Positions 30,729 through 63,665 of a DNA stretch of 64,000 nucleotides are shown here, piece after piece. A model generated the notes under the pieces. That model saw only the letters and a list, made by a program, of their open reading frames with translations, did not search any database and was not told the origin of the DNA. This DNA comes from Aureobasidium sp. EXF-3400 (Eukaryota; Ascomycota; Dothideomycetes; Dothideales; Saccotheciaceae). The position numbers and the translations under genes are program-made. The number at the start of each line of letters is the position of its first letter. Positions within the stretch are counted from its first letter, which is position 1. The DNA lies in NCBI GenBank assembly GCA_024195585.1, contig SWBL01000246.1, positions 1 through 64,000 on the forward strand, given 5' to 3'.

Positions 30729-31580
30729 GGTGTAGCGAGTCACCTGTTGTTGACGTCGAGATTTCCTGAGGTGTGGATTTCGGCACGAGAACGATGCGTG
30801 TCAAAAACAGGAGAAGCAATCTCGGTATACTAGAAATCCGTGAATGCACAGTCGTTGGAGGCAGTCACAATCGTATTCTAGCGACGCGCTGAACTTGGTT
30901 GACGAGATGAAGTTGGAGCGCGAAGTGGATCTTCCGATGATGGTGCAGAATCCGCCTTGTGTTTGCTTGGCATCGACTCCACCAGATTTTAAGGTGGAAC
31001 AAGTGGAATGCCTCCTTACCGCACGAACCTGCCCCAGAACGTCCTCTTCTTACAACTACGTTTCGAAAATATGGCGTTATGTGAACGCTGCTCGGTTAAA
31101 TCGCTGGCAAGCGTCGGGAACGCTTGTTGGCGCTGATGTCGAACACGCGAGATGAGCCAGGAGTTGCGGCGCATGTGCAAGAGCCGCATCTTGTCATCTA
31201 TCTACAACAATCCTACAGAAGCGAGCTGGACTCTACCAGCATCGATGCTTGCTGTCTGCACGATCGGTCCGGGTTGATAGCATCGCGTATGGCTCTCGTT
31301 GTTGCATGAAACAGTGGATACCACAATAAACTTACCCTAAACCTGACCTCCTGGCACTGCCTGGTGAGAGCGCCTCGAGTATATGTAGGTTTCTGCTTGC
31401 TCTCTGTGCTTCTTTGCTCAGAATCAATCGCAACTTTCGCACCTGTCCATTCTTTTGCTCACGGTCTGTGACCACCGACACTCATTCGTTCTTTCGACAT
31501 TTAGCACTGGGTGCTTTGCTTTCAGCCGATCCATTCTCTAACCACAAGTTCCTCGACTTTCGACTTTTCGAGCACTCAAA
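30729..31580. other. Intergenic, promoter of the LPMO gene
   Basis: Divergent promoter region of the cyclin and the LPMO gene. CT-rich near 31430-31560 just before the LPMO start. No gene seen. Confidence 0.5.
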
Positions 31581-32813
31581 ATGAAGTACTCTACCGCTGC
31601 TCTTGCTCTCGCCGGTATGGCCACCACCGTCCGCGGTCACGGTTTCATCACTTCTCCCAAGGCTCGTATGCCTGGTGATGCCTTCGAGGCTGCCTGTGGT
31701 CAGCAAGTCTACTACAACCAGGCTGGTGACAACTACGGCAACATCCAGGGCGAACTCCAGGTTGCCAAGACTCAGACCGACTACAACGCTGATAAGTGTC
31801 AAATCTGGCTCTGCAAGGGTTACAAGTACGAAGATAACAAGGATCTTGTCGAGACTTACACCCCCGGACAGAAGGTTCCTATCAAGTTCGATGTTCGCGC
31901 CCCCCACGATGGTACTGCCAACGTCTCTGTTGTTGACACCGCCACCAACACTGTCATTGGCACCCCTCTGATCTCATGGGACGTCTACGCCTCCAGCGCT
32001 TCGGCTATCCCTGCCGACCAGACCTCTTTCACAGTCACCATCCCTGAGGATCTTGGCAGCAAGTGCTCTACCCCCGGTGCTTGTGTGCTCCAACACTTCT
32101 GGGATGCCAGATCGGTTGATCAGACCTACGAATCCTGCATTGACTTCACCGTCAGTGGGTCAGGCTCCGGTGCCGCACCTGCTAGCTCCAAGGCTGCCTC
32201 ATCCAGCGCCGCTCCCGTCTCTTCCCAGGTTTCTGCTTCCTCTTCGAGTGCTCCTGCTAAGGCTCCTATCACCTCTACCCAAGCCGCCTCATCTGCTGCT
32301 CAGCCTACCACCATGGCCACTAGTGTCAAGTCCAGCGCTGCTTCCGTTTCCTCCAGCTCAGCTAGTGGTTCTGTCGCTGCCTGGGGTCAGTGTGGTGGAA
32401 AGGGCTTCACTGGTGCTACTGCCTGTGTTTCGGGTCACACCTGCAAGGTTCAGAACGACTACTACTCGCAGTGCGTTCCTGGCGAGAACAAGGTAACTGA
32501 TGCTTCGTCCCCTGCTGCTTCCAGTTCGTCCTGCACAACCACCATCACTCTCACCAAGAGCTCTTCCGCCGCTGCGAACACAATGGTGAGCTCTACCATC
32601 GCTACAAGCACAAGCGCTGACAATGCTCCGACAGGCCTAGACCTGACCAGCGCCGTCAAAGCTCTCAGCACCGCCGTTCCCACATCAGTTCTGACTGCTA
32701 CCGCAACTGGAGCTGCCCCTAGCGGTACTGCCAAGCCTATCCCTGAGGGCTTCACTCTTGAGGATTGCCTGGACTGGATCGACTACATTGTCAGCAACGC
32801 TGGTAAACAATAA
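31581..32813 (+). CDS. Secreted lytic polysaccharide monooxygenase, AA16-like, with CBM1 (410 aa)
   Basis: Intronless. A signal peptide ([19 protein letters not shown]) is followed directly by a His, giving the mature N-terminal His-Gly needed for the copper histidine brace. The catalytic domain (about 20-200) contains [49 protein letters not shown], the second-His box [14 protein letters not shown] and [12 protein letters not shown] recognise this pattern from family AA16. A Ser/Ala linker leads to a fungal CBM1 (about 266-301, [15 protein letters not shown] and [11 protein letters not shown]), which binds crystalline cellulose. A second Ser/Thr linker then leads to a short acidic tail, [20 protein letters not shown]. 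It acts extracellularly on plant cell-wall glucan with a copper cofactor. AA11 and AA13 are less likely alternatives. Codon use is strongly biased to C-ending codons, suggesting high expression. Confidence 0.88.
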
Positions 32814-43105: not shown

Positions 43106-43899
43106 GATCATAAAGATCAAGACCAACGGTCTCCGGAGAATGGCGGATAATACAGAGGGAGGCATGATATCGAACGAACTGATTATCGAAGATACGAAAT
43201 GCGATCTGTTCATGACAAGTTCCTTGCTCCCTTCCCCGTGTTCAAAAGTATATAACGCGTATGAGCTGTAGAAATGCATGATACTACCAGCAAACTGGAC
43301 AGTTCCCACTGAGAAAGCGACAAAACATGGACTCTCTATGGATAGCATTTGTTTCCGAATGAGACTGTGCCTTTTCTTAGCGTGTGGCTTACTCTTATGT
43401 TGTGGTTCGGAGTCTGATGCAAGTTACATACCTTTTGAACACGGGGAGGTCGTACAGTGCTTGACACAGGTTTTATCTCTGTGTGAATGATTTACTTGAC
43501 GCGGTATCGAAACTACCATCAAGGCTACTGGGTCAGAACCACAAGTCTAATAGACATCTTATACTCCAAAGACTGTATGTTCGTCGCCAATTCAGTGATG
43601 TTGTGGAGGGTACGTCACAAAGTCTCAATAGCTTCTCCGGGCGAGCCACCAGATAATCCACCACCAACCCAAGCTATTCTCACTACCAGCCTAATTCCTC
43701 TGCATTTCACGATAGCTCAAAAGTGAAGTCAAGGTGTACAAGCAGCATCGAACTGGGCTTCGGGCTGGATCAAGTCTGGGAATCAAAGATTCGTCGAACT
43801 TATCTACCACCATAAATGATTCTGCTTCTACCACGACTACTCTTCCAATCGAGAAGAGAAACAGCTGTTCCTAGATGGATTATCTACTTCATTTGTCAA
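43106..43899. other. Intergenic, no gene seen
   Basis: 3' flank of the peroxin gene. Short frames only. Confidence 0.45.
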
Positions 43900-43931
43900 A
43901 AAAATTTGTAAGTCATCTTGTTTGCATGTGT

Positions 43932-43985
43932 CTGTGAAAGTGGTTAGTTGAAAGTAATTTTGATGATGCAGAGGTTCGAACTCAC
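43932..43985 (-). other. Spliceosomal-type intron 2 of the U6 snRNA gene
   Basis: Donor GTGAGT, branch CAACTAAC 12-18 bases before acceptor TTTCACAG. Removing it joins GGATG to ACACATGCAAA, the normal U6 3' side. Confidence 0.82.
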
Positions 43986-44036
43986 CATCCTTAGTGCAGG
44001 GGCCATGCTAATCTTCTCTGTATAGTTATAAATTGA

Positions 44037-44091
44037 CTAGCGTGGTGTTAGTTTTCGGTATCGAAGATAGATTACAGCCAAGCCAACGTAC
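44037..44091 (-). other. Spliceosomal-type intron 1 of the U6 snRNA gene
   Basis: Donor GTACGT, branch AAAACTAAC, acceptor CACGCTAG. Removing it joins the 5' stem-loop GGGCATTAG to TCAATTTATAAC, matching the CATTTGGTCAATTTG-like U6 consensus. Confidence 0.78.
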
Positions 44092-44130
44092 CTAATGCCC
44101 AAAGGGCAACAAAATCCAGTTTTTTGGGAA

Positions 44131-44137
44131 ATATATA
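44131..44137 (-). promoter_or_regulatory. TATA box of the U6 gene
   Basis: TATATAT on the minus strand, about 21-27 bases upstream of the inferred U6 5' end, as in Pol III U6 promoters. Confidence 0.6.
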
Positions 44138-44650
44138 GGGTATCACAAGTGAAGTCGTTCTTCGAGGACGAACCCTCTGTGGACTCAGCAGTTGACAGAG
44201 GTTTCTGTGATAGCGGGACAAGTCGCTAAAATAGCAAAGTTGGCAGCTGCGACTTGTGGCGTTGGACGCCGGGCGACGCGTGTTAAACTTATGCTTTCAC
44301 ATGCCACTGCCTGAGGATGACCACGGACGATCAAAAAATTGAGTGGGATAATTTTGAGCAGAGGTGGGATTTGTGCCTCGATTCTGATGGGCTTACTAAG
44401 CAGAACATTGACCACGACATCACAACTCCGAGGACGACACATTTGGTTGCAACCAAGAACGAACAAAAGACATGATGGAAGTGCGAATAAAGCTTTCTGC
44501 ATCCGCAAGCTACGGAGACGGCATTTCATCGTGTAGAAGCAGTTGATCTTGCATGCTACGTTTGTTGCATTCCATAAGCAACCTGGCCACTTGCTTTCTC
44601 CTTGACCTTTATTTCCGTAATACATCTGGCTCATGCGTTCTCTGTTGGAC
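44138..44650. other. Intergenic, no gene seen
   Basis: Upstream of U6 and 3' flank of the broken secreted-protein gene. A 163-codon minus-strand frame has no motif. Confidence 0.45.
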
Positions 44651-45937
44651 TCAAGTCTTTCTCTTGCTGATGGCAAGCGTGGAAGCCCAGATCTGCCACA
44701 TGACGCAGCCGTTCTCGCTCTCGTGCTCGATCAGAGAACCTCCGAGCTTCTGAGTAGTCGTGTCGGTCTCACCTGTTGACTGTCAGTCCGTATCTCGGAA
44801 CCCAGTCAGCTGGCACCTACAGTTATTGACAGCCTCTTGAAGGACCTGGCTGCATCTTCCGCCGTGATCAACAACATCAAAATCAATGTCCGGTCCGCAA
44901 CCTTCTCCTGCATCGATGCCCAAGGTGTCGGTAAAAGCAGCCATGATGGTGATGATCGTACCGTCGTAGGCGTATGATCGCTGCGGGTATGTGGACACAT
45001 CGACAAGCGGATCCTGGACGAATGGCTCAGGTTGCATTGGCATTGTGACCTGAGCCAGAGTATCCGAGCAGAACTGATTGATGGCGTCTGTAGCCTGGTC
45101 GACTGTGAAGGGGTATTGCTCGCGTGGTAGCCAGTCAGCGGCACAGATCGTCTCATCAGTGTTTGGCTGGCTGATGCGGTAGCTGTAACTGCGACAGCCT
45201 GCACCAAGAGAACCCTCTGATGCCATGCAATTCTGTTCGTCGCCGGCCATGCCGCCTGTTTCAGCGTCAATACGGCTTCTCTATCTATTCAAGAAGGAGA
45301 CTCACATGATTGTGTCAACGTATAGATCGTGTCGGTACAGGTCCTTCTGCACACCGCAATACCATCAGCTCCAACCTCTTCCGCGGTAGCCTCGAAGTGG
45401 AAGAACCAAAGATTGCCCCATCTAGGCGGATACATCGAGCCACCAGGTGGGAGTGTTCTCAATCGGCCGCGAGTGGCATTGTTGAAGTCCTGAGAAGTGT
45501 AGTCCTTCATGACTGCCGCACCACCACTGGCATCGACTTCAGCACAGAACATCTCAGCGATATCGTACCAGAGAGAGCTGATGATGCCACTTGAGTCGAT
45601 CACGTCACAAGCTCTAGAGATGGCGTCCGCAGGCATAGGGTTCCAGAAGGGACTTCCGTTACCAGCCCTGGATGAGTCGCCGATGGTTTAGACAACGTAA
45701 GTGGCTACTGTAGAGCAGTCGTTGAACTCAAGCTCGTGATAGCGCTTGTGATAGAATCTGTAGAAGTCAGTGGTGTCTTCTAGGTTGGTCTTTGACGATC
45801 AGACCTGAAAGTGCATCTTGGTCAATGAAAACGAATCGATCAGGAGCACTTTCCCGCTGGACGTCCTTCTGTTCAAACACCCTGGCTGCAGGAGCTGGCC
45901 ATGTTTTCGGGCTGGCAATCTGGGCATTCGATGTGTA
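44651..45937 (-). pseudogene. Cysteine-containing secreted-protein-like gene, disrupted (in-frame TAA and a frame break)
   Basis: The 3' part is well structured. Exons 44651..44772, 44821..45255 and 45306.. upwards join with correct phase through 48- and 50-nt introns (donors GTAGGT, GTGAGT). They encode ADAISRACDVIDSSGI, WGNLWFFHFEATAEEV, CRRTCTDTIYTLTQSC, a middle with regularly spaced Cys, VLQEAVNNCETDTTTQKLGG and a final GCVMWQIWAS. Upstream the same frame continues (DTTDFYRFYHKRYHELEFND, CSTVATYVV) but meets TAA at 45688-45690. Near 45790 the frame must move by one base to join FEQKDVQRESAPDRFVFIDQ. No start codon or signal peptide was found, so the 5' end may be lost. I do not recognise the family; the pattern resembles Cys-rich C-terminal regions of extracellular fungal proteins. 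Confidence 0.6.
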
Positions 45938-46377
45938 TCAGATGACCCCCTTGCAAACTAGCCTTAGATGACAGTCTCTAGCGCCAAAACGCTTTCACGC
46001 TTGTTCTTGCGATTGTATTGGATCTATTTGCTCTGATAGTGATTTTGGATTCGGTCGTATAGATAATGCCGCGAGCATGCATATTTGCATCTGATTTTCC
46101 AACTCCAGTCCCGTGTTGATCGCGAAGTGAGTATCTCAACAGTTGTTCCCAACTCTCAAACATGGTAAAATACTTCGTGTCGCAATTCTCCATATAAGAT
46201 GTTGAATAGAAGTTATTAATTTTCACATAACGCCAAGCCTATTTGTGCAGCCAGGCTTCGCGCATAGAAAAGGGTCCACAAACCTTGGAACCAAAATTTT
46301 CGAAAAAAGACTCTTCTCGACCCATCTCACCACCCTCTTTTCTACCTGATCACATACCACACAAGCAAAAGAAATGT

Positions 46378-46385
46378 TGACGAGA

Positions 46386-46417
<32 letters not shown>

Positions 46418-46468
46418 CGTATTGGAAGAACCTTAAGCTGGCGCCTTAGACCGCTCGGCCATCTCGCC
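46378..46468 (-). tRNA. tRNA-Leu (anticodon TAA) with a 13-nt intron
   Basis: Read leftwards: acceptor GGCGAGA (from 46468) pairs with TCTCGTC. A box TGGCCGAGCGG. Anticodon stem GCCAG/CTGGT encloses CTTAAG, 13 extra bases and G, giving anticodon TAA. The long class II variable arm (CCGAAAGGG) and T arm GTGGG/CCCAC with GTTCAAATC complete it. The intron sits next to the anticodon 3' side as is normal for tRNA. Confidence 0.9.
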
Positions 46469-46947
46469 CTTCCGGGAACCCGATACATCTTGCGATTGCC
46501 GAGTTCTGGATGTGGTTGTGGTCGTGTTTGTGGCATATGTAGCTCATATGTCCGCATGCGACCACTCAGGATAGTCACACATGTTGTTAGTTGAGTACTG
46601 ATCCAATAAGTCAAGCTGCTGACCGGATGTCATAGCCGGTGGGAAATGGTTGCTCTCTCACGTGCCTCGGTGATGCTGTGCGTAGGACTGCCGTTTGTTT
46701 TGTCGAGCATATTCTGTAGGGCAGAGGCTGTTCCAGAAGGATATACAGTATCAACAGGCATCTTGTCATTGTTTTCTTCCGAAGGGTGCGAGAGTGAGCT
46801 GAACAGAATACCAATGAGAGGATGGTTTGATCCAGTATTCCAGCACTGCCAACGACCTGAAACGATGTGAGCAATGTCTGGCATAGTTTCGTTTAGGCCG
46901 TGGCAAGTATGGCTCGTAAGAGAGCCAGAGCTGCGTCTTGATCCGGC

Positions 46948-48215
46948 TCAAAGAATTCGGTCCCGCTCTGTTTGTGGTTCCTCTTCCTCTGTCGCAGTAG
47001 CAGAACCTTCTGGTCCAGACTCGAGGGCATCTTGACCATCAGTAGATTCGTTGTTGGAATCACCAGGGTCGTCAGCAAGGTCCTCATAATCGCTTGAGTT
47101 GAAACTCGGACTTGTTAGATCCGGCAGGTTCTCAAAAGGAAAGTAGTTATCGTCCCAATCATGGCCAAGTCTGCAAGGTCCGCGGTCATTTTCCCAGTTG
47201 ATGCAGTAGCAGTCTTTCCATTTGTAGCATTCTGATTCGATCTACGAACAAATCAGCTTGGGCAGATGTGGAATCAGTAATGAGAACATACGCCTTTGCA
47301 ATGATAATCATTGCGTCCAGTCTCCCAGGTCTGTTCTGGTCCACCACAATCCTCACAATCGAGCGTATCATGACTGGTTGGACATTCTTCATCATCTGGT
47401 GCATTGGTGGCGTCGTTGAGTCGCTGTTCGATAGAGGTCTCCTCCAGATTCTCGGTCTCATTAGCAGAATCCCGAAGCTCTTCTTCCTGAGCCGACCGAT
47501 CGTTAGGGGTATCGTCCAAATCAGAATCAAAGGTGCAGGGTCCACATTCATCAGTAAAGTCCATGCAATAGCAGTCCTTCCATCTGTAGCCTTCTGCTTC
47601 GATCTAAGGGACAAGGTCAGCTCTGTATAATAAGCCTTCGGTCATGCTACATACGCCTCTGCAGTGGAAGATGTGTGAATTGTCTCCCCAAGGTCGTTCT
47701 GGTCCACCACACTCCTCGCAATCAAGCGTGTCAATTCCGCTCGGGCATTCTTCCTCGTCTGATGTATTGTTTACATTGTTCTGCTGACTTTGAATGAAAC
47801 TCTCTGCTGAGTTGTTCACTTCCTTGTTAAGGTCCAGATCTTCGATCCATGAAGTCAAGCCGTCGTTGTGGCCCCCTCTTTGACTGAAGACTTGACTAGT
47901 ACCTCTGCTCCGCAAGCCGTCAGAACGGTGTGCAAGCTGTGTAGAGTTTGTGGGTGTTGGATCTTGGGTCAAAGCTCTAGTGTCGGTGTGTAACATGGGA
48001 GACGTGTATACGGCTCCGACCAATAATCTGGATGATGCCGATTCGGTGGCGGTCTGAAGCGACATTTGCTGTTGGCGGTTTCGGTGTCCGTGGATGCGCA
48101 ACTGAACTGGACGCTGGCGCGCATACAGTAGGCCATTGTGGTCGGACAAGGCGGCCGAGGCGAGAAGCACGTATAGCGCAAGCAGATAGAACGGAATAAC
48201 AAAAGGGACGAGCAT
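46948..48215 (-). CDS. Secreted protein with duplicated Cys-rich DCEDCGGPE/WKDCYC module (3 exons, 388 aa)
   Basis: Joined complement(46948..47241, 47292..47603, 47655..48215). ATG at 48215 starts a signal peptide (MLVPFVIPFYLLALYVLLAS). After a disordered basic and Ser/Thr region there are two copies of a module. Copy one is EECPSGIDTLDCEECGGPE, FHCRG, then IEAEGYRWKDCYCMDF and ECGPC. Copy two is EECPTSHDTLDCEDCGGPE, YHCKG, then IESECYKWKDCYCINW and RGPC. In both copies an intron of 50-51 nt in phase 0 falls between the HC(R/K)G and IE halves, so the duplication includes the intron. The tail is acidic (TEEEEPQTERDRIL). Family not recognised. Extracellular, disulphide-rich modules are expected; an effector or cell-wall role is only a guess. 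Confidence 0.8.
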
Positions 48216-48578
48216 TTTGATGGTGGGTTCTAGTGATCGATGTGGATGGGAAGTTGGGAAAGAGCGATGGTCGCGTGTTGCAGATTATGTGAAAGTGAGC
48301 TGTCACATGCTCTTGACGACTCGCTACGCTTTGACGGGAGCTTGTGAAACTGAAAACAGGAAACAAGGCAGATTCGACATTCAAGACGAGACTTTCTCAA
48401 CGCTTCTGAGCAGATAGCACTTACAAGTGTGAAGAGGAACGGAATGCTAATCATGATGCTTTGTAAGAGTCACTACTGAAAAGGTTCCACAGCGAGTAGC
48501 TCCTTGCGATGCAATGATCTCTGAAGAATTGCCGTGAGCATATCCACCATCATTATTGCGAGCTCCTTCTTTGCACGA
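48216..48578. other. Intergenic, no gene seen
   Basis: Promoter of the secreted repeat protein and 3' flank of the F-box-like remnant. Confidence 0.45.
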
Positions 48579-49307
48579 TTAGCCGATCATCGAAGTGCTC
48601 GAATCAAGAGCACATTGGCAACCCTTGATACCACCATAAGTCTGTGCGATCTGGAGCAGATCTCCATCGAGCTCACCCACGAAATTGCATCCATCGATGT
48701 CAGCCACGGTGGACAACCACACGACCTCGATGTGGCTAGGGACTTGAGCTAAAATTCCGCAAACAAGACCAACTAAAAGAGGTGCGTTGCGCCATGTGGA
48801 GTCACGTTGGTGAACCCATCTTGGAGCGCGAACCCCAACATCGCCTAGAACCAGGAACAGTTCGAGAGTGCGAAGTGACTTCAGCTTAGTCAGGTCACCC
48901 ATCGCGATTGACCTGATAAGATCGTACGGCGTCTTTAAGGTGATCTCGATGTTCAGGCTTAGACGTTGAATCTTTTCAGCAGTGGCGGGAGGGATACAGG
49001 CCAAACGCGGTGCGCAGCTGACAGTGAGCCTGTCGGGAGTTGTAGGAGCATAGCCCATTGCTCATTGGCGGTTGTCGTATGCAAAGGGAACTGCCTCATT
49101 GTAGATCTGCTTGCAGACACGCAGAAGATTGACGCCCAGAGGAGACTTGATGGCAGGTTCGTCATAGGTGATCTCCGGAAGCAAATCGTCGGCTTTGTAG
49201 CCAACTTCGCCTTCATTCGAGAGATGCAGACGATAGATAGAGTGACGCAACTCAAGTGGCAGGCCCAAGAAGTTGAAGATGCCTGAACGAGTGGACAGTG
49301 TCGTCAT
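48579..49307 (-). pseudogene. LPxELR (F-box-like/2EXR-type) protein gene with an in-frame TGA
   Basis: The frame from the ATG at 49307 reads MTTLSTRSGIFNFLGLPLEL, RHSIYRLHL, LLRVCKQIYNEAVPFAYDNR. This is the usual opening of the large fungal family that starts LPxELRxxIY and continues LLRVCxQIYxEA. It meets TGA at 49062-49064 and continues in the same frame for another 159 codons (RLACIPPATAEKIQRLSLNI, SLRTLELFL, VPSHIEVVWLS), ending at 48579. This second part is plainly the rest of the same protein. The stop replaces a residue that would be Trp (TGG to TGA). No splice sites allow it to be skipped. A genuine pseudogene, an unusual short isoform or a sequence error are the options. Confidence 0.62.
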
Positions 49308-57144: not shown

Positions 57145-57975
57145 TCAGGGACCAGTATCTGACTTTTTCGAGTTGTCTTGAGAATCTGACTTGTTCTGGG
57201 ACTCCTGTTGAGCAGTGGGAAGCCCAAACTTCATCCGCCAGTACCTTTCTCTAGCACGTTGAATTTGAGTCTCCCGAAATTCAGGATCGTTTGCATACCT
57301 CTCCTTGAGACGTTGCTTCGTAGCCTCCCGAAACTCAGGATTGTTTGCATACCGCTCCCGATGGCGCCGGACGTCGGCTTCTCGATAGTCGGGGTCGTTA
57401 GCGCAGCGTTCCTTGTGACGCAGGTAACGTGCTTGTCGATAATCAGCGTCGTTAGCCCAGCGTTCCTTGTGACGCTGGAGTGTGGCTTGCCGATAGTCAG
57501 TGTCATTAGCCTAGCGCTCCCTTTGACGCAGCTTATGAGCTTGTCGATACTCGGCATCGTTGGCGTATCGTTGGTTATTTCTCTGGAGTGAGGCTTCGAT
57601 CATCTTCTGATACCACTCTGGGTCGGTATCGCTTCGTTTCTTGAAATACTCTATAGAAGACTTCTTCTTTCTTTGACGATACTCGGTATTTGTGGCATAT
57701 TTCCATCGGTTGTATGCGTTGTATTCATCTCTGGACCAGGACCTGATGGGTCCAGGAGGACGAATAAAGTCGGGGATAGAAGAAGAAGATCTGACCCAGA
57801 CATTTTGGAACACCTGGAAGGTCGAAAAGATGGGACGAGCAAGCAGTGTAAACGAAGCCATTATCCGAAGCAGGTTGATATGATTAGAGTAGAGTCTAGA
57901 AGGAGCAGCGATCAGTGGCCAGATCGGTACCAACCTTTGTAGAGAGCAATAGAAAATGCTTCTGATATCACACAT
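57145..57975 (-). pseudogene. 18-residue tandem-repeat protein gene interrupted by an in-frame TAG
   Basis: Read leftwards from the ATG at 57975 (a second ATG at 57861 begins MASFTLLARPIFSTFQVF, which looks like a mitochondrial presequence). After SRDEYNAYNRWKYATNTEYR the protein enters six 18-residue repeats of the form R-Y-A-N-D-P-E-F-R-E-A-x5-K-E, for example RYANDAEYRQAHKLRQRE and RYANNPEFREATKQRLKE. The frame is open to the final TGA at 57145 except for a TAG at 57511-57513. This falls exactly where other copies have Tyr, Trp or Cys (RY/RW/RC-AND). Either the gene is a pseudogene, or it makes a protein with one full repeat, or the base is wrong. Strongly basic, helical, function unknown. 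Confidence 0.6.
57250..57574 (-). repeat. 54-bp coding minisatellite, six units
   Basis: Six consecutive 54-bp units each encode an 18-residue R-x-A-N-D/N-x-x-Y/F-R-Q/E-A motif. Units differ mostly at synonymous or conservative positions. Confidence 0.85.
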
Positions 57976-60171: not shown

Positions 60172-61554
60172 TCAAGCAACAAAACGTCTACCAATCAACC
60201 CAGCATTCCCAGCCTGATCAGGCACAGCAACAACAGAAGGCAACGAACCCTGAGCAGCAGTAGCAACAAGCACAGTGCTAGCCGAAGCAGTAACATAGCT
60301 CGTCACAAACTCAGTGGTTGTTTGAGTGGGAGCGCTGCCCTGAGCTTTGTTGGCAACACCTGACATGGTGATGTAGTCGGTGACGGTGACGAAACTGGGC
60401 AACTGAGCAGAGGGAGGGCTGTAGAAGGGGAATGAAGGATTGCCAGAGGGGTTGTAGGTGGGTCCTGGAGTTGGAGAGGAGGTGTTAGCGAATGGGAAGG
60501 GAGGAAGAGAGATCGTGGGGAGGGAGAGGGACTCACTGCTTGGAGCTGTTGAGGGATTGGAAGGAACAGCGGATGAAGAGATTGATGAGCCAGATGAAGA
60601 AGTGGTTGTGGCTGAAGAGGCAGCAGCAGCACCAGTTGATGTAGCAGAACCAGAAGCACCAGCAAGAGTGTAGAGAGGGCTGCTGGTGAGAACAGTTCTA
60701 GACTTGAAACTGCTGACAGCAGTAGTCTGAGGGTCCTGCTGTTGAAGAGTGTGGACAGGAGAAGCATTGCTGACCGAGTCAACAATGTCAATCTCGGCGC
60801 AAGAGGTGTAGTACTCATCTTTGCCAGTGGGGTAGGTAGAGTCAACACCAGCCTCAGTAGGCCATTGCCAAACCCAGTAGACAGTAATAGTCTCACCAGT
60901 CTTGTAGTTCGAAGGAATATGAACATCAGTCTCACACCACTGCTCAACATTGGAGTCAGGTTGGTCGACGACACGATCAGGGAAAGACTTTTGGCGTTGC
61001 ATAGAGATGGTTCCAGAGTTGATTTGATGACAGCGTCCATCATCAAAGTTCTGAGCAGCAATCTGAGTACCACGCGAGTCGCCACCATTACCAGCAGTGT
61101 TCCACTTGAGGACATCAACGATTTTCTCAGTGTCAGAAGGGTTGGTAGTGGCATAGACAAAGACAGTGCCAGCAGCTTCGGGCTTGCCAGGCTGGTTCTG
61201 TGGAAGTGTGACGTGACCATTCTCAAGGTACTTCATGGCGATGTAAGAACCAGGGGCAGCTTGAAGACGAGGGTACTTGGTGTTGGTGTAGTTCGAGGTG
61301 CGTTGATCAGGGTGGCATAGAAGATCAGTACCATCAATGCGAGTGCGACCAGAGCTCAGAGCTGGCAAGAGATAGTCGACAGAATCACCGTTGAAGCCAG
61401 GATCAGTGCGAGCAACATAGCCACGAGTGTAGCCATAGTCGCCAGTGTAATTGCCAGTAGTCGAGTCAATCACCTGCATCTCCTCAACCCAAGAGTGAGC
61501 CGAGGCCTGACCAAGAACGGCAGCAATAACGGCAGCAGAAATGTAGAACTTCAT
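60172..61554 (-). CDS. Secreted His-first DUF7492 protein (LPMO-like), 460 aa
   Basis: Single exon. ATG at 61554 starts a signal peptide (MKFYISAAVIAAVLGQASA) followed directly by HSWVEEMQVID, so the mature protein begins with His as in copper monooxygenases. The globular part (20-270) has GYTRGYVARTDPGFNGDSVD, GTDLLCHPDQRTSNY, IAMKYLENGHVTLPQNQPGK, GTVFVYATTNPSDTEK, FDDGRCHQINSGTIS, WCETDVHIPS and YWVWQWPTEAGVD. These are the blocks of fungal DUF7492, a family with an LPMO-like beta-sandwich and possible HxxxH copper ligands. Activity is unproven. A long Ser/Thr/Pro-rich tail follows, ending without a GPI signal. The same frame stays open 205 codons upstream of the chosen ATG, but that stretch looks like a CT-rich promoter/leader and would bury the signal peptide. 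Confidence 0.85.
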   Translation of the reverse strand: MKFYISAAVIAAVLGQASAHSWVEEMQVIDSTTGNYTGDYGYTRGYVARTDPGFNGDSVDYLLPALSSGRTRIDGTDLLCHPDQRTSNYTNTKYPRLQAAPGSYIAMKYLENGHVTLPQNQPGKPEAAGTVFVYATTNPSDTEKIVDVLKWNTAGNGGDSRGTQIAAQNFDDGRCHQINSGTISMQRQKSFPDRVVDQPDSNVEQWCETDVHIPSNYKTGETITVYWVWQWPTEAGVDSTYPTGKDEYYTSCAEIDIVDSVSNASPVHTLQQQDPQTTAVSSFKSRTVLTSSPLYTLAGASGSATSTGAAAASSATTTSSSGSSISSSAVPSNPSTAPSSESLSLPTISLPPFPFANTSSPTPGPTYNPSGNPSFPFYSPPSAQLPSFVTVTDYITMSGVANKAQGSAPTQTTTEFVTSYVTASASTVLVATAAQGSLPSVVAVPDQAGNAGLIGRRFVA

Positions 61555-63665
61555 GTTGACAGACGAAATTTTCTGAAGTGTGTTGAGAGATGTGTTGTTG
61601 GAAAACAGACGTGTTGTAGGGGGAAAGAGATTAGTGACAAAAGATCCTCGAACCTGCGAAGGAATATCTTTGTTTTTTGGTGAGAGAGTAGATTGTCGAC
61701 TCTTTTCTTCGAGAACTTGATGTCTTTGACGAGAGGTTGGGTTGTCTTGGGATTGTGGTCCGTCGAGAAGCGTCAAGTTCTTTCTGTTTTGTTGTGTCTG
61801 AGATGGATTTTCGAGAACCTTCAAGGCTTGGTCGAGGGAGTGCTTAAGTAGGAAGATGATGCCAGAAGAGACACAGAAACCTGAAAGAAGACAACAAGGG
61901 CGTCCGGCGCAGGAAGAATGAACAAGACTAATGCTTGCACAAAGAGAGTCGAATGTGGCACAATGGCAACAATGAGCTTGACAATGCAGAAAGGCGGAAA
62001 ACGATTGTGGGCTGTTAAGCGAGCGGCAACAACCAGTACTCTTGAATGAATGAACGAGGGTGATGAACAATTGAACAATGACCCTTGACGTTGAGGGAAA
62101 AAACTGGTGGTGAGTGCGGAAGTGAGGGTCATTGACGTGTGATGTTGTTGTTTGCGCTCTGGTGACCACGACGCGCTAGATCCGGCTAGCGATACAAACG
62201 AGCAATAAAGTGACGACTACCAGCGACGGAAATGGTTCTGGAGAGGAAGCACGGAAGTGGTTGCTCGTAGACACCTCAACACCACCAAAGCAAGAAATGG
62301 TCACAGAAGGATTAAACTGCCTGCAGCTGTGTGACCGGGGAACAAGAAGAGGGAAGAACTTAAAGGACAACGGCAGCCAGGCAACCTCTAACCGGGAATG
62401 TGGAATCTTGTATGTGATACTCAAGGGAGCCGCTTGTGTGTATAGTGTAGGCTCATGAGATCCAGTGAAGCCATCGTTCGGGCGGGTCGATACTTCAAAG
62501 CAAACAATTCATGTGTTTCATCGACCACCAAGCCTGAGCGGCAGTTTTGCCATGTCGCGCGCGTGTCCAGTAGCTCAGAAACCTGGGTTCTGTTCTGGAC
62601 TGTCTGAGACACGTGCAGCCGCCACGTGAATACCAATATTCTCAGCAGGTGCTATACCTAACTTTTCTTGAGAGGCGCTGAGCCATGTGAATGTCGTAAG
62701 CCCGTAGAGCCTGCCATTGAGCCTCACACGTCACCCATAGCTATCCAACAAAGGATTTGAGAACTTCGTTCTTTGTCTTGCCATATAACCTCGTATGCAC
62801 GACCTCAACGAGTCAACAACACCTCGAGGTTCCATGCAAGACATTTCGTCTTCGAAACTTCTAGAGACGGTCTTTTTTGCACCACAGTTTGACAAAGCGC
62901 TGTGTGCGACTCGGCCAGTCTATCACTTTTCGGGATGGAGGAGCAAGGAGAGGGAAAGGACGAGGTGAGGTTTCACACACGTCGAAGCCGCGCTTGCGAC
63001 GCTGTGCTGATTGGTCACCTTCAACATCAACTTCTCTGAATTTCGCGCCCGAGTCCAGTTCTCTTTCTCAACAACAAAGAAATTCTTGTAGACGCGCGTC
63101 GAGGACGGAGAGGACTTGGTTCGAGATGTGATGCATGATGCGTGGATGTATGGTATGCAGTGGAGTTTGCGAACATCGAGTTGCGAACACACGCACTGCA
63201 AAGTGGGATAGGGACAAAGACCCCTCTTTTGATTGCTCTATCTTGCGTCTGTCATCAGTTACAGCGGATACCTGCATACATGCAATCTCGTAACCAGACA
63301 GCTCTGGGGATGCCAGATGATGGTGAGATTGATGACAGTACTCCCACCGGAAGTATCTCTCTGCTGTCACATGACAGGCGGGGTTTAGGACTAGCTCCCG
63401 TTCTGTCAACAAGAAGAAACTCTGGGCTGTTCCTTTCCTGATAAAGAGAATGCAGTGTTTATTAAGAAGAAACAACACAACATGCATACATCCTGCATCA
63501 AGCTTACTCACTAAGCTAAAGAAAATGCATACAGTAACGATCGGCTTCAGACAGCGAGCCGAAGTCTAAGCTTGCGAGAGAACAAAGAAAGCAAGATAGA
63601 GGCATTAAGGTGCTAAGCGGCATGGGAATTGTGATTACTCTCTTACATATACGGCCTTTCAACCT
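61555..63665. other. Intergenic between the DUF7492 gene and photolyase
   Basis: 2.1 kb with no supported gene. The minus strand is CT-rich up to about 62100 (promoter of the DUF7492 gene). Two CACGTG hexamers lie 13 bp apart at 62610-62615 and 62623-62628. Confidence 0.5.

Follow-up and report, generated by a model that had tools for sequence, protein, structure and literature searches.

The window, a stretch of 64,000 nt on contig C246 of an Aureobasidium assembly (53.4 Mb in 717 contigs), carries on its minus strand a U6 snRNA gene (44110-43898) in which the U6 blocks follow each other in order and are interrupted twice by introns of the mRNA type. Judging from its sequence, this is probably a working Pol III gene, whose RNA would be spliced twice and whose second intron would double as a part of the promoter.

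Anatomy of the window U6 gene

Exon 1 (19 nt, 44092..44110) carries the 5' hairpin TGCCC-TTT-GGGCA and is separated by intron 1 (55 nt, 44037..44091; GTACGT...AACTAAC...CTAG) from exon 2 (51 nt, 43986..44036), which contains ACAGAGA, AGCATGGCCCCTGC, and AAGGATG. Intron 2 (54 nt, 43932..43985; GTGAGT...CAACTAAC...CACAG, with CTAAC within the middle element) is followed by exon 3 (34 nt, 43898..43931), where CATGC completes the internal stem-loop and a T7 terminator ends the gene. A TATA box (TATATAT, 44131..44137) on the same minus strand begins 27 bp ahead of exon 1; this box and the T-run terminator are sequence elements of the Pol III type. The joined exons make 104 nt and the unspliced precursor 213 nt. 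The Rfam model RF00026 assigns the unspliced gene to U6 (43952-44051, 48.8 bits against a cut-off of 44), the match running into intron sequence at either end, and the processed RNA has the ACAGAGA/AGC invariant core and an internal stem-loop whose stem is predicted.

The sequence-only reading had proposed that the locus is a U6 gene interrupted by two introns of the mRNA type, in which the 5' hairpin, ACAGAGA, AAGGATG, ACAC, and T7 stand in order on the minus strand once two segments of 54-55 nt are removed. The order of the blocks, the textbook splice signals of both segments, the TATA box at about 27 bases, and the terminator all bear this out. It had also placed one intron 15 bases from ACAGAGA, which indeed starts 15 nt after the start of exon 2, and the other beside the bulge of the internal stem-loop; intron 2 lies one base from the unpaired U of that stem-loop. 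Its span of 43900..44110 has to be extended by two bases, the transcript ending at 43898. It included neither a second U6 gene nor a promoter role of intron 2, both of which are taken up below.

A second U6 gene with one of the two introns

A second U6 gene, copy B, lies on contig C230 (57238-57400). Its intron 2 (GGATG^GTGAGT...CCAG^ACAC, 56 nt) sits at exactly the same position as that of the window gene, and it is without intron 1: CATTAGTC is contiguous exactly at the site of intron 1 of the window gene, and its CATTAG^TC is the junction predicted for the spliced window RNA. The exon 2 core is identical in both genes. The TATA box of copy B is the same heptamer and starts 28 bp upstream of the start, compared with 27 bp in the window gene. 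Its 5' hairpin (TGGG-CCTAAAAA-CCCA) is at the same place, with changes on both sides of two pairs of the stem, two C-G pairs of the window gene being G-C in copy B. The likeness is confined to the gene (147 bp at 83%, C230:50000-59900 against the window), and the two genes were rejected as syntenic duplicates, since their flanks are not shared.

The assembly was searched with RF00026 (47 of 3,461 first-look candidates were scored) and with three patterns allowing up to three mismatches in the core and the 3' exon, and these two genes were the only U6 genes to turn up. An intronless U6 elsewhere had been named as the main finding that would speak against two introns in the window gene; none was found among the scored candidates nor by the three patterns across the assembly, and both genes have intron 2. 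An intronless U6 may be unassembled or lie outside the scored candidates. Three more RF00026 matches at E values up to 10 (15.5-19.1 bits) are far below the cut-off of 44 and were discarded; at this level, 10 of 14 control genomes also give matches. Two of the patterns gave 7 and 5 extra sites with three mismatches, which we take as chance (reversed-pattern controls gave 0 and 3), and the third gave none. Matches above the cut-off numbered five for U4 and seven for U2, so U6, with two, is comparatively scarce. Two of the five U4 genes begin ATCCAAGTGCACGGG, two begin ATCCCAGTGCAAGGG, and one is without that 5' end.

Outside the assembly, the only relative found was intronless and stood in a bacterial MAG record; there was none in viral contigs (searched with the exact 18-base core), plasmids, or phages. 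The contig concerned (L036), filed as Verrucomicrobiaceae, has a standard intronless U6 at 2255-2359 (RF00026, 104.9 bits), and the record probably carries eukaryotic contamination.

Splice signals and folding

All three introns of the two genes have a GTRNGT 5' site, a CTRAY branch site, and a YAG 3' site, in agreement with the U2 type. Among the 383,664 segments of 54-56 nt in the window, 5 carry the three signals at their exact ends, the two introns of the window gene included, and the signals arose 2, 0, and 0 times per 200,000 single-base shuffles of window intron 1, window intron 2, and copy B intron 2, respectively. Homology alone places the ends of intron 2 with a margin of 2 nt: its excision in copy B ranks second, tied, among 4,998 single excisions, the first having the same start and being 2 nt longer. 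The ends of intron 1 are not fixed by homology (rank 16 of 3,570 pairs against the outside U6 and 11 of 3,570 against copy B), and this intron was called from its splice signals, the distance to the TATA box, the 5' hairpin, and an exon junction, CATTAG^TC, that copy B has uninterrupted. We infer that the U6 RNAs of both genes would be freed of their introns by splicing.

The modeled spliced RNAs (104 nt for the window gene and 107 nt for copy B) form both the 5' hairpin and the internal stem-loop. The basal internal stem pairs exon 2 with exon 3, and its pair probability is 0.99-1.00 in both spliced RNAs versus 0.00 (window gene) and 0.09 (copy B) in the unspliced ones. The alignment score to the intronless outside U6 is likewise higher after splicing (104.5 versus 58.0 for the window gene and 99.5 versus 74.0 for copy B). 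Energies of pairing with U4, predicted with four of the five U4 genes found, do not separate spliced from unspliced U6. With all four, the gain was larger for the spliced RNA in the window gene and smaller for the spliced RNA in copy B; the two being opposite in direction, this energy was dropped as an uninformative test of splicing. The predicted duplexes place the GCCCCTGCACTAAGGAT region of U6 against the 5' end of U4 in the two of the four U4 genes for which they were inspected.

Candidate promoter boxes in and around the introns

In both genes, intron 2 begins GTGAGTTCGA, so that its 5' splice site lies partly within a candidate B box of the tRNA type and has intron bases 4-6 in common with it. 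The box of copy B (AGTTCGATCCC) is identical to the B box of a tRNA-Gln(CTG) of the same genome and scores 14.9 bits, within the range of 21 distinct nuclear tRNAs (12.1-18.2 bits); 4 of 127,980 window positions score as much or more. That of the window gene (AGTTCGAACCT, 43972..43982, minus strand) scores 7.7 bits, which is below all 21 tRNAs and is equaled or exceeded at 44 of the 127,980 positions. Its site is near-palindromic and scores 10.1 bits on the opposite strand. The string GTRAGTTCGA occurs once in the window, at this intron. The scoring matrix comes from the 21 distinct tRNAs, drawn from 28 of the 30 fetched loci and the window (the assembly has at least 63 tRNA matches); two loci of a tRNA cluster on contig C432, taken as mitochondrial, were left out. 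The matrix boxes were chosen by a pattern presuming GTTYRA, which was present in all 21.

The A-box consensus is TRGYNNANNNG. Copy B has TAGTCTATTTG, which agrees with it at all six fixed positions, and the window gene has TAGTCAATTTA (44029..44039, minus strand), which agrees at five. In each gene, the A box stands 57 bp upstream of its B box, a distance within that of tRNAs of the assembly (42-63 bp). In the window gene, intron 1 splits the A box, and its three terminal bases, TAG, restore it in the DNA together with the start of exon 2.

From these elements, we propose that TFIIIB bound to the TATA box would start Pol III at around 44110, with the help of TFIIIC bound to the A and B boxes. 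In intron 2, the opening 14 bases would serve both as 5' splice site and as B box for TFIIIC, and intron 1, specific to the window gene, would have its disruption of the A box repaired in the DNA by its own TAG end. The cell's own spliceosomes would then excise the two U2-type introns of the precursor, leaving about 104 nt of mature U6. Both of the U6 genes found would need splicing, so that making U6 would require pre-existing U6 and be autocatalytic, as in S. pombe. Intron 2 may be kept as a promoter element, with a weak B box in the window gene, and such a constraint may be an additional explanation for its persistence, beside an origin by reverse splicing. A wider statement, that Aureobasidium U6 introns are promoter parts, that U6 splices U6, and that the intron persists for transcription and not for splicing, is one we would put forward tentatively, as a serious possibility that falls a little short of probable. 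Were it so, loss of intron 2 would cost the promoter, and intron 1 could have inserted into the A box only because its 3' end rebuilds it.

The B-box match of intron 2 could also be a coincidence, the genes using the TATA box alone or a downstream B box and intron 2 being an old insertion. The B box of budding yeast U6 is downstream, weak sites lie past the terminator in both genes (8.1 bits at 43513, 385 bp downstream, in the window gene; 7.4 bits at C230:57620 in copy B), and the score of the window gene is modest. We regard a coincidence as rather unlikely, because the match stands at the same place in both genes, at a tRNA-like distance from the A box, and in copy B equals a tRNA box exactly; moreover, the title of Frendewey 1990, as cited in PMC10484740, states a B-box match for the U6 introns of Schizosaccharomyces.

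With intron 1 in place, 71 bp separate the A box from the start set by the TATA box, compared with 19 bp in copy B; this distance is odd for TFIIIC and leaves room for a competing start inside intron 1. If TFIIIC set the start near 44059, the segment called intron 1 would not be an intron, the 5' end of the U6 would lie elsewhere, and splicing would remove intron 2 alone. The start-to-A-box distance of copy B, counted back from the A box of the window gene, falls inside intron 1, and the RF00026 match to the unspliced gene begins at 44051, both of which speak for this alternative. It is nevertheless improbable, given the TATA spacing to 44110, close to that of copy B, the perfect 5-bp hairpin at the 44110 start, and the GT...CTAAC...AG signals of intron 1.

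Two sets of contigs and the standing of the window gene

Genes neighboring the two U6 genes occur a second time, on other contigs, with 79-91% identity in the long blocks. The genome apparently consists of two diverged subgenomes, and either an interspecific hybrid or a mixed culture is possible. Contigs were assigned to a set by one gene each. C246, the contig of the window, belongs to an A. melanogenum-type set (Pex24 98% identical to A. melanogenum), as does C327 (tryptophan synthase, up to 100%). The other set, diverged from this one, comprises C230, with copy B (tryptophan synthase 97.9% identical to A. namibiae and about 96% to A. melanogenum), and C156 (Pex24 90% to A. melanogenum). For an NFX1-type helicase of the window, the closest match was 98% identical; the best named matches, to A. 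melanogenum, were 91% identical over 84% of the query and 92% over 75% of it, and other matches labeled A. melanogenum were 73-79%. Stable diploid hybrids are reported for A. melanogenum in PMC9535773, where they are called intraspecific. Two window open reading frames (31542-32813 and 60172-62175) look by eye like secreted proteins of the lytic polysaccharide monooxygenase type.

The two U6 genes may be in separate nuclei. On another reading, the window gene is silent or decaying, with the one-intron copy B supplying the U6 of the cell. The weaker B box of the window gene, its more distant A box, and the extra intron kept in it would fit such silence. We find it hard to reconcile with an exon 2 core identical to that of copy B, an intact T7, a TATA box at nearly the same spacing, complete splice signals in both introns, and a 5' hairpin preserved by paired changes; silence of the window gene therefore seems to us quite unlikely. 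Moreover, as the two genes are in different sets (by one neighboring gene per contig), the window gene would be the sole U6 found for its parent. Decay as the main reading of the locus was rejected, the blocks being intact and an intronless U6 not having been found.

Relation to known U6 introns

Fungal U6 introns and the intronic B box of Schizosaccharomyces are already known, and the two genes are of that known kind. What is added here is the contrast between two related U6 genes that have one intron in common and differ in the other, and perhaps also the overlap of splice donor and B box and the rebuilt A box. U6 intron insertion is said to have happened multiple times in fungi, to go by the title of Canzler, Stadler and Hertel 2016 (RNA Biol 13:119). 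Tani and Ohshima in 1991 reportedly described basidiomycete yeast U6 with multiple mRNA-type introns in one gene; this is like the window gene, in another phylum. An excerpt of PMC7827515 cites Canzler 2016 for fungal U6 that "often has multiple introns." A "U6 snRNA promoter with 1st intron" is mentioned for Trichoderma reesei in a table of PMC9518982, whose wording suggests more than one intron in the U6 of another filamentous ascomycete. In an open-licence collection of papers, we found no report on Aureobasidium U6 introns and, by title, no paper on an Aureobasidium U6 promoter.

The U6 of S. pombe resembles both genes in having an mRNA-type intron near the catalytic part and an intronic B-box match (weak in the window gene), as excerpts of PMC10484740 describe it, and its intron is thought there to stem from reverse splicing. 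Unlike this single-intron U6, the window gene (one of the two copies) has a second intron. A possible further difference is that in both of our genes the B-box match shares bases with the splice donor. The Lsm2-8 of S. pombe binds both mature and intron-containing U6, according to the same excerpts, and both forms were probed on Northern blots in those of PMC8917221.

Why introns are kept in an RNA at the spliceosome's own active site is an old puzzle. Intron 2 is common to two U6 genes, with a B-box match that is strong in copy B and weak in the window gene, and these two natural alleles turn the question of a reverse-splicing accident or a selected element into a testable contrast. U6-driven guide-RNA vectors in black yeasts may, by our inference, go without a B box where the promoter is cut just upstream of U6.

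Surroundings of the two genes

In the stretches of C156 and C327 compared, no U6 was found at the corresponding position of the other subgenome. On C156, the blocks that match the flanks of window 43110-48871 are about 0.6 kb apart, with only 69% similarity in the far one, and the similarity of C327 to C230 stops after C230:56525. Both U6 genes adjoin synteny breaks between the subgenomes, with about 0.6 kb in C156:73500-80500 facing 5.8 kb in the window.

Copy B has upstream of it a truncated U6 exon 3 with its 3' flank, in inverted orientation (C230:56987-57092 against 57368-57474, 90% over 82 bp), whose similarity starts one base inside exon 3, at the border of intron 2 and exon 3. One of the three U6 pattern searches did not pick up this piece. 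It was rejected as a full old U6, the part before exon 3 being no closer to exon 1 and intron 2 than shuffles were. About 450 bp downstream of the window gene, at around 43235-43450, is a MITE-like dispersed element, about 215 bp long and bounded by terminal inverted repeats (CCCCGTGTTCAAAAG... and ...CTTTTGAACACGGGG); eight of its further copies were aligned, and there are others.
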